Below, piece by piece: positions 15,093 to 15,450 of a DNA stretch of 31,432 nt. The stretch is taken from positions 1 through 31,432 of the IMG/VR virus record IMGVR_UViG_3300042987_000154; one strand, written 5' to 3'. The notes under the pieces were generated by a model. That model was given only the letters and a program-made list of their open reading frames with translations. It did no database searches and had not been told where the DNA came from. Numbering within the stretch: the first letter of the stretch is position 1; each line of letters opens with the position of its first letter. The DNA is from a virus. Made by a program: the position numbers and the translations under genes.

Positions 15093-15450
15093 ATTTGGTA
15101 TATGAATGATTTGCCGCTTTGAAGCCATGGTAGTGCTATCTCAGCACTACCAAACTGTGGACTTGCCTGCCCATCAGCCATGTCGTTTGTTCCCGTATAA
15201 CTACCCTGTTGTGATGTTATACGCTACCGGTTATACTGTAAAGTTTATGGACTGTAGTTGTAGACTCTCATCTACTATAACGCATGTCCTATATCCGCAA
15301 AACGAAATAAGATATAGGCTCATTGAGGGTTCGCAAACCTGTCGATTGCCCTCTCGGTATACGATACTATAAAAGTATCTTTACTCCAGATCCGCAGGTG
15401 ACTAGTAAACTAGACTTGCTCAAGGAGGATAGATAAACTATCAACTAATT
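15093..15450. ncRNA. Gene-free, hairpin-rich region: candidate structured RNA
   Basis: About 358 bases without a convincing gene, about 43% GC across 15121-15420 and visibly richer than neighbours. Perfect inverted repeats follow one another: 15128-15152 (10 bp, loop ATCTC), 15194-15223 (8 bp), 15260-15275 (5 bp), 15288-15318 (8 bp), 15325-15353 (5 bp), 15363-15379 (6 bp, loop ATAAA) and 15428-15442 (5 bp, loop ATAAA). It lies between converging units, so it could be a plus-strand RNA of its own or the structured 3' end of the minus-strand operon. An AAGGAGGA sequence at 15422-15429 has no start codon near it. I recognise no known RNA family. A DNA-level role (packaging or recombination site) is also possible. 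Confidence 0.4.

Follow-up and report, generated by a model that had tools for sequence, protein, structure and literature searches.

Covariation supports a conserved, doubly pseudoknotted noncoding RNA behind the recombination genes of uncultured T4-like jumbo phages

Comparative analysis shows a conserved, structured noncoding RNA (ncRNA) of about 340 nucleotides (nt) on the minus strand at positions 15111 to 15449 of the window (the whole 31,432-base virus record analyzed here, which carries T4-type genes), occurring as a single copy in the large contigs examined from an uncultured T4-like jumbo-phage lineage. Among phage RNAs, it probably represents a new type. The general hallmarks of a structured ncRNA, namely, covariation beyond phylogeny, confinement to one strand, and the lack of a coding frame, were all observed. 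With somewhat better than even confidence, we favor the interpretation that this gene-free island encodes a compact, doubly pseudoknotted ncRNA of a new family, transcribed from the minus strand, that would be operon derived, stable, and trans-acting. The initial annotation of this DNA had proposed a candidate new structured RNA here, and the proposal is supported by abundant covariation, a lack of protein-like conservation in any one frame across homologs, and the absence of a match to any cataloged family; the limits of the element are now refined to 15111 to 15449.

Several features listed in that annotation were recovered. Its serial inverted repeats correspond to at least eight hairpin stems in series, and the GC content of the island (41.6%) does exceed that of the window (37.5%). 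The only sizeable open reading frame (ORF) (15106 to 15372, plus strand, 88 amino acids [aa]) is unconserved, as expected from the claim that no ORF is believable, and no frame stays open across homologs (longest open stretch, median per frame, 35 to 50 codons). The island also lies, as described, between converging units and follows a pair of plus-strand hairpins with a T-run (15043 to 15094). The ATAAA loops said to be common to two hairpins are present in the window but are not conserved (the P1 loop occurs in 2 of 58 homologs); their sharing is a coincidence, and the RNA lies on the opposite strand.

On the minus strand, the window encodes a T4-type major head protein (3499 to 4695), the portal protein gp20 (7679 to 9472), and a lysozyme-domain protein (9501 to 13904). 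The last of these, 1467 aa long with a phage lysozyme domain close to its C terminus and adjoining the baseplate hub, is probably a giant tail-associated lysozyme. The downstream neighbor of the RNA is the convergent baseplate hub gene (13994 to 14818, plus strand; PF12322, E = 5.3e-17), and the hub-RNA synteny is kept in nearly all loci checked. A 93-aa protein (14761 to 15042, plus strand) is encoded at the equivalent position in many relatives (47 to 61% identity) and had zero matches in Pfam and PHROG searches. The minus-strand genes on the other side of the island encode a PDDEXK nuclease or RusA-like Holliday junction resolvase (15451 to 16023; PF24608, E = 2.6e-24; phrog_244), a radical SAM protein (16040 to 17053), and a gp46/SbcC-like protein (17050 to 18813); the gp47/SbcD-like assignment of 20890 to 21909 is based on a subthreshold Metallophos match (E = 5e-4) and on the gene order of PA5oct. 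The radical SAM gene, located in the gp46/nuclease interval, is optional, as relatives have it, lack it, or substitute up to five other ORFs. By portal protein, the closest cultured relative is the jumbo Sinorhizobium phage Phosso (56% identity), and other near cultured jumbo relatives are Agrobacterium phage Atu_ph07 and the PA5oct group (52%). In PA5oct (L203:2470-3980), the genes for the baseplate hub, nuclease, gp46, gp47, and late sigma form the same neighborhood, with a run of tiny annotated ORFs ahead of the nuclease, a stretch that could be the site of an unrelated RNA.

We aligned at least 103 distinct homologs from IMG/VR, and because these sit on contigs of up to 524 kb, we assign the lineage to uncultured T4-like jumbo phages. 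An IMG/VR search with the nuclease returned 80 loci, nearly all of which matched the island (blastn) directly downstream of the nuclease gene; in the one locus without a match (L027), the downstream sequence is too short to judge. A scan with a DNA motif internal to the RNA, partly overlapping with the nuclease search, returned at least 119 loci, at least 105 of them with the element, and a second scan using the P9 hairpin added 34 further copies scoring >140 bits with the covariance model. When applied to nine large contigs, the covariance model found one copy in each (9/9). Three candidate distant homologs with 18 to 21 bits at first look (L100, L175, and L195) were rejected; the L100 match lies inside an ORF with many pairs broken, and the L175 alignment is identical to that of L100. 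For the 22 loci in which both parts are complete, mean pairwise identity was 69.5% for the RNA core, 70.9% for the nuclease amino acids, 49.8% for third codon positions of the nuclease gene, and 45.4% for its fourfold sites. The RNA core, at 69.5% versus 45.4%, is therefore constrained far more than the silent sites of the neighboring gene.

The nuclease is present in SCTP-2, Phosso, PA5oct, Campylobacter phages, and SCTP-2-like loci despite the absence of the RNA. The covariance model gave nothing convincing in the complete genomes of SCTP-2, Phosso, PA5oct, and Campylobacter phage F352, where the best chance scores were 12 to 13 bits and came from SCTP-2 only, and it detected no RNA in five SCTP-2-like environmental nuclease loci. 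Megablast and blastn searches of 50,697 phage records with the island returned no match. Among the 84,980 prokaryote genomes scanned, there were 0 matches to the P9 pattern and five to the core motif, none of the latter scoring as the RNA (best, 12.8 bits) or having relatives of the window's proteins nearby. Because it is absent from the cultured relatives and the prokaryotes scanned, the element is, within the sensitivity of these scans, a marker of one jumbo-phage clade.

Covarying pairs, one of the checks named in the initial annotation, were abundant in the homologs. In the core alignment (58 sequences), 94.0% of paired cells were canonical, compared with 77.6% in shuffled and 30 to 40% in slid controls, and both the number of double-change cells (546 versus 171 shuffled) and the number of pairs with double changes (39 versus 31.4 shuffled) were elevated, as was the covariation score (0.511 versus 0.192 shuffled). 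The full-length alignment gave a similar picture for canonical and double-change counts, and nearly all helices covary. A home-made, R-scape-like, tree-aware test (G-test with APC; nulls obtained by randomly re-placing Fitch-counted substitutions on a FastTree tree) yielded 19 column pairs at E < 0.05, with E-values that are rough, being based on 20 nulls and a fitted tail; 15 of the 19 are >85% canonical, and long-range pairs of both predicted pseudoknots, PK1 and PK2, are included. Covariation thus supports both pseudoknots. Folding energy contributes less: with 200 dinucleotide shuffles, the minimum free energy (MFE) z-score was -2.6 for the plus strand and -2.8 for the minus strand, a moderate excess that does not tell the strands apart, and over 15 homologs the mean was -2.78 for the RNA strand and -2.84 for the opposite strand. 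Taken alone, folding energy is weak to moderate evidence. The single-sequence z-score of merely about -2.7 would be compatible with chance hairpins or a decayed, functionless coding sequence, an explanation that is refuted by the compensatory changes in more than 100 distinct homologs and to which we assign a negligible probability.

The strand was read from departures, in homologs, from pairs that are Watson-Crick in the window. Read on the nuclease strand, these departures were G-U rather than A-C in 159 versus 63 cases (alignment A1) and 251 versus 88 cases (alignment A2). Because G-U is far more common than A-C, we place the RNA on the minus (nuclease) strand of the window. The same counts bear on another option raised in the initial annotation, a DNA signal, which here would be a replication origin or a site for packaging or recombination, with inverted repeats that extrude or are bound by proteins. 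The location between convergent units and beside recombination genes, the nearly invariant P9 sequence, and the similar folding z-scores of the two strands would all suit such a signal, but the excess of G-U over A-C at pairs (at least 2.5-fold), the compensatory changes, and the RNA-like covariation of long-range pseudoknot pairs make it very improbable. P9 alone could be a DNA or protein site.

Read 5' to 3' on the minus strand, the RNA opens with the motif ATTnGT (ATTAGT in the window; 15444 to 15449), preceded by an A-rich block, lying just upstream of P1, and near invariant in most homologs. This block could be the RNA's own 5' end or an unrecognized promoter element, and if it is a promoter, it would change the view of the RNA as part of an operon transcript. 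In a minority of homologs (L114, L116, L119, L106, L172, L180, and L197), a ACAGAACCCTACAT-type flank replaces AAAAATTnGT before the RNA; this flank pairs well with the 3' tail in L114 and L172. A closing helix between the 5' flank and the 3' tail was unsupported overall, the duplex energy being -4.52 for own partners and -4.48 for swapped partners. Hairpin P1 (15428 to 15442), which is length variable, misaligned in the full-length alignment, and thus scored sequence by sequence, forms at least five pairs in 54 of 56 homologs, with 36 different stem sequences; shuffled flanks gave five pairs in about one-third of trials, and the weight of the result lies in its consistency across homologs. 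The P2 stem (CTCC/GGAG) surrounds the variable hairpin P2a (15384 to 15427); it is 100% canonical and includes double changes (for example, CTCT/AGAG), and the region contains the near-invariant motifs TTGAG and GGATCT. The variable hairpin P3 follows (15363 to 15379; 88% canonical), with double changes in 5 of 5 pairs.

The core is closed by the long-range helix PA (15355 to 15358 with 15226 to 15229), which is 100% canonical, shows a CG-to-UA double change in L072, and encloses P4/P4a, P5a/P5, and PB. Hairpin P4/P4a (15325 to 15353; 100% canonical, four of five outer pairs compensated) has a conserved internal loop, GGCAA..GAACC, and in hairpin P5a/P5 (15284 to 15323; 99.5% canonical, with compensation at 10 of 11 pairs) the P5 loop supplies the 5' strand of PK2. 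Helix PB (15276 to 15281 with 15230 to 15235; 96% canonical) contains the variable hairpin P6 (15260 to 15275), the near-invariant motifs ACTACAG (15252 to 15258) and ACTTTACAG (15236 to 15244), and the 5' strand of PK1. P6 aligns poorly (58% canonical), and in L260:1844-2188 (minus strand) an insertion in or beside P6 splits the core, so that the model matches as two halves. Downstream of PA is hairpin P7 (15195 to 15222; 94% canonical, 9 of 10 pairs compensated). PK1 (TCC/GGA; 15249 to 15251 with 15191 to 15193) is interleaved with PA/PB, is 95 to 99% canonical, and was significant in the tree-aware test; its first pair is UA in 32 sequences, CG in 14 to 15, GC in 4, and AU in 3 to 4. PK2 joins CGTTT of the P5 loop (15300 to 15304) to AAACG (15184 to 15188); it is 100% canonical, compensatory changes occur at four of its five pairs, and two pairs were significant in the same test. 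A variable region separates the 3' strand of PK2 from hairpin P9 (TGGTAGTGC..GCACTACCA; 15128 to 15152), which is almost invariant in both sequence and pairing (99% canonical; four of nine pairs never vary). The conserved 3' tail, CATGGCTTCAAAGCGGCAA (15111 to 15129), is kept in homologs with frame-breaking 1-nt indels, and a short peptide starting at its conserved ATG was rejected because these indels shift the frame.

The weakly supported parts of this predicted structure are P6, the variable P2a, and a possible P8 between PK2 and P9. Overall, the freely covarying P1, P3, P5, and P7 look like a scaffold, and the near-invariant P9, 3' tail, ACTACAG/CTTTACAG, GGCAA..GAACC, and TTGAG/GGATCT look like candidate sites of tertiary contact or of binding, where the partner might be a protein, a second RNA copy, or a small molecule.

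We infer minus-strand transcription of the RNA from its evolution alone. The T4-type late promoter TATAAATW was absent from the 80 nt upstream of the P2 anchor in 99 of 100 homologs and present in 1, and the TATAAATA promoter just upstream that would mark a T4 late-transcribed RNA is not a feature of the element. Exact TATAAATA words occur at 13937 (plus strand) and at 13951, 9492, and 22962 (minus strand), 20 to 80 bases ahead of the genes for the baseplate hub, the lysozyme-domain protein, and the portal and of the gene at 21954 to 22886; their total in the window is not above chance. Because there is no late promoter and coupling to the nuclease stop codon is tight, the RNA would be made by read-through, as the terminal part of the mRNA of the recombination operon. 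The two hairpins at 15043 to 15094, which in the plus orientation precede a T-run and form the baseplate-unit terminator, probably also end the minus-strand transcript, and a GAAG-loop hairpin is conserved at this position in homologs.

Such coupling is also what would be expected of the main rival explanation, a cis-acting 3' untranslated region (UTR) of the nuclease/recombination mRNA without a free RNA function, whose fold would block 3' exonucleases or sense a ligand or protein and so set the level or timing of the nuclease mRNA. In the window, the RNA begins two bases past the nuclease stop codon, and the nuclease is directly upstream in 87 of 87 testable full-length loci among the motif-scan matches listed (86 by automatic test and L190 by coordinates, with three loci excluded for having <80 bases upstream; some of the 87 contigs were found by the nuclease search as well). 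Genes are inserted between gp46 and the nuclease in relatives, and neither a conserved gene nor a shared long ORF separates the nuclease and the RNA in the loci checked. However, simple 3' protection does not call for a pair of covarying pseudoknots, a hairpin of near-invariant sequence, and long unpaired motifs that are invariant; other T4-like jumbo phages with the nuclease do without the RNA; and riboswitch-like control would be unusual at the far end of an operon, after its last gene. We therefore regard a purely cis-acting element as rather unlikely. The strict nuclease synteny is equally compatible with cis and trans roles, and the nuclease-RNA link may be passive, the whole neighborhood being syntenic. 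The initial annotation had offered an independent ncRNA and a stable 3' end of the nuclease mRNA as separate options; both may be true together, as a 3'-UTR-derived RNA.

In the trans-acting interpretation that we prefer, transcription of the recombination operon (gp47-like, gp46, optional radical SAM, and nuclease) would finish with the RNA and stop at the hairpins that this operon and the converging baseplate unit have in common. The pseudoknots and terminal hairpins would confer nuclease resistance, so that the RNA might persist independently after the mRNA body decays or be released from the operon transcript. As the least certain step, it would act in trans as a folded RNA, either bound to a phage or host protein or self-assembled, and not by base pairing like a simple antisense small RNA (sRNA). 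If a protein is the partner, the P9 hairpin and 3' tail, being near invariant, resemble a recognition site for it. The most likely role is that of an ncRNA that acts in trans or as a scaffold after release from the 3' end of the operon transcript. We speculate, as a minority possibility, that a doubly pseudoknotted catalytic or self-assembling RNA of a new fold class, produced from this operon, performs a step of infection; a new ribozyme, an RNA scaffold or cage, and an RNA cofactor of the adjoining nuclease are examples that jointly share this tentative standing. If it proves to be a ribozyme or nuclease cofactor, its activity would be a new one for RNA in phage replication.

It is improbable that the element is a ribozyme, whether self-cleaving or group I-like, with a role in processing the transcript. 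The core is compact, has invariant unpaired motifs, and shows an interleaved order (PA 5', PK1 5', PA 3', P7, PK1 3') that resembles the P3-P7-P8 arrangement of group I introns, which have a similar size range. In contrast to those introns, it has an extra helix (PB) and, as inferred from the structure, no counterpart of the J8/7 segment between P7 and PK1. No Rfam ribozyme or intron was matched even at E-values of up to 1 to 5, and in all loci checked the element interrupts no gene, being flanked by the nuclease stop codon on one side and the convergent downstream genes on the other.

Searches of Rfam 15 (4227 families, including GOLLD, ROOL, OLE, tmRNA, RNase P, 6S, introns, riboswitches, and ribozymes) gave 0 matches in the whole window at the gathering threshold and 0 matches in positions 15000 to 15500 at E ≤ 5; in seven homologous loci, the only match was a weak one to Histone3 (21 bits, E = 0.076; gathering score, 34). 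ARAGORN found no tRNA or tmRNA in the window, and a tmRNA identity was rejected, there being no tRNA-like domain and no conservation of the ATG-led frame in the 3' tail. In the literature on jumbo-phage structured RNAs covered by our search, outside which most subscription papers fall, this RNA is undescribed. Few elaborate classes of phage RNA are known, GOLLD and ROOL being the usual examples, and what they do is unsolved. The RNA described here is shorter and strongly constrained and occupies a fixed genomic position beside recombination genes, and so structure determination and knockout should be tractable given a cultured host-phage pair. The covariance model, consensus structure, and list of contigs (to 524 kb) can be used for searching metatranscriptomes; IMGVR_UViG_3300027749_002876 and IMGVR_UViG_3300043418_000114 are two of the homologous contigs.

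Among known systems, bacterial and phage 3'-UTR-derived sRNAs resemble this RNA in their position, immediately past the final ORF of an operon and ahead of a terminator-like hairpin. Those sRNAs act mainly via short seed pairing, whereas the RNA here is larger and constrained by pseudoknots. The phi29 pRNA is also a structural RNA that a phage encodes, and it works together with phage proteins, but it is shorter, serves DNA packaging in podoviruses, and was not matched in the Rfam scans. GOLLD and ROOL, which form RNA-only nanocages (PMC12286853), share with this RNA that they are phage encoded, highly structured, pseudoknotted, and noncoding. They differ from it in length (600 to 800 nt or more versus about 340 nt), in the lack of an Rfam match here, and in genomic setting, being found in tRNA islands rather than, as here, with recombination and baseplate genes in a window without tRNA. 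Although a member of neither family, the RNA belongs by kind with these large structured phage RNAs.
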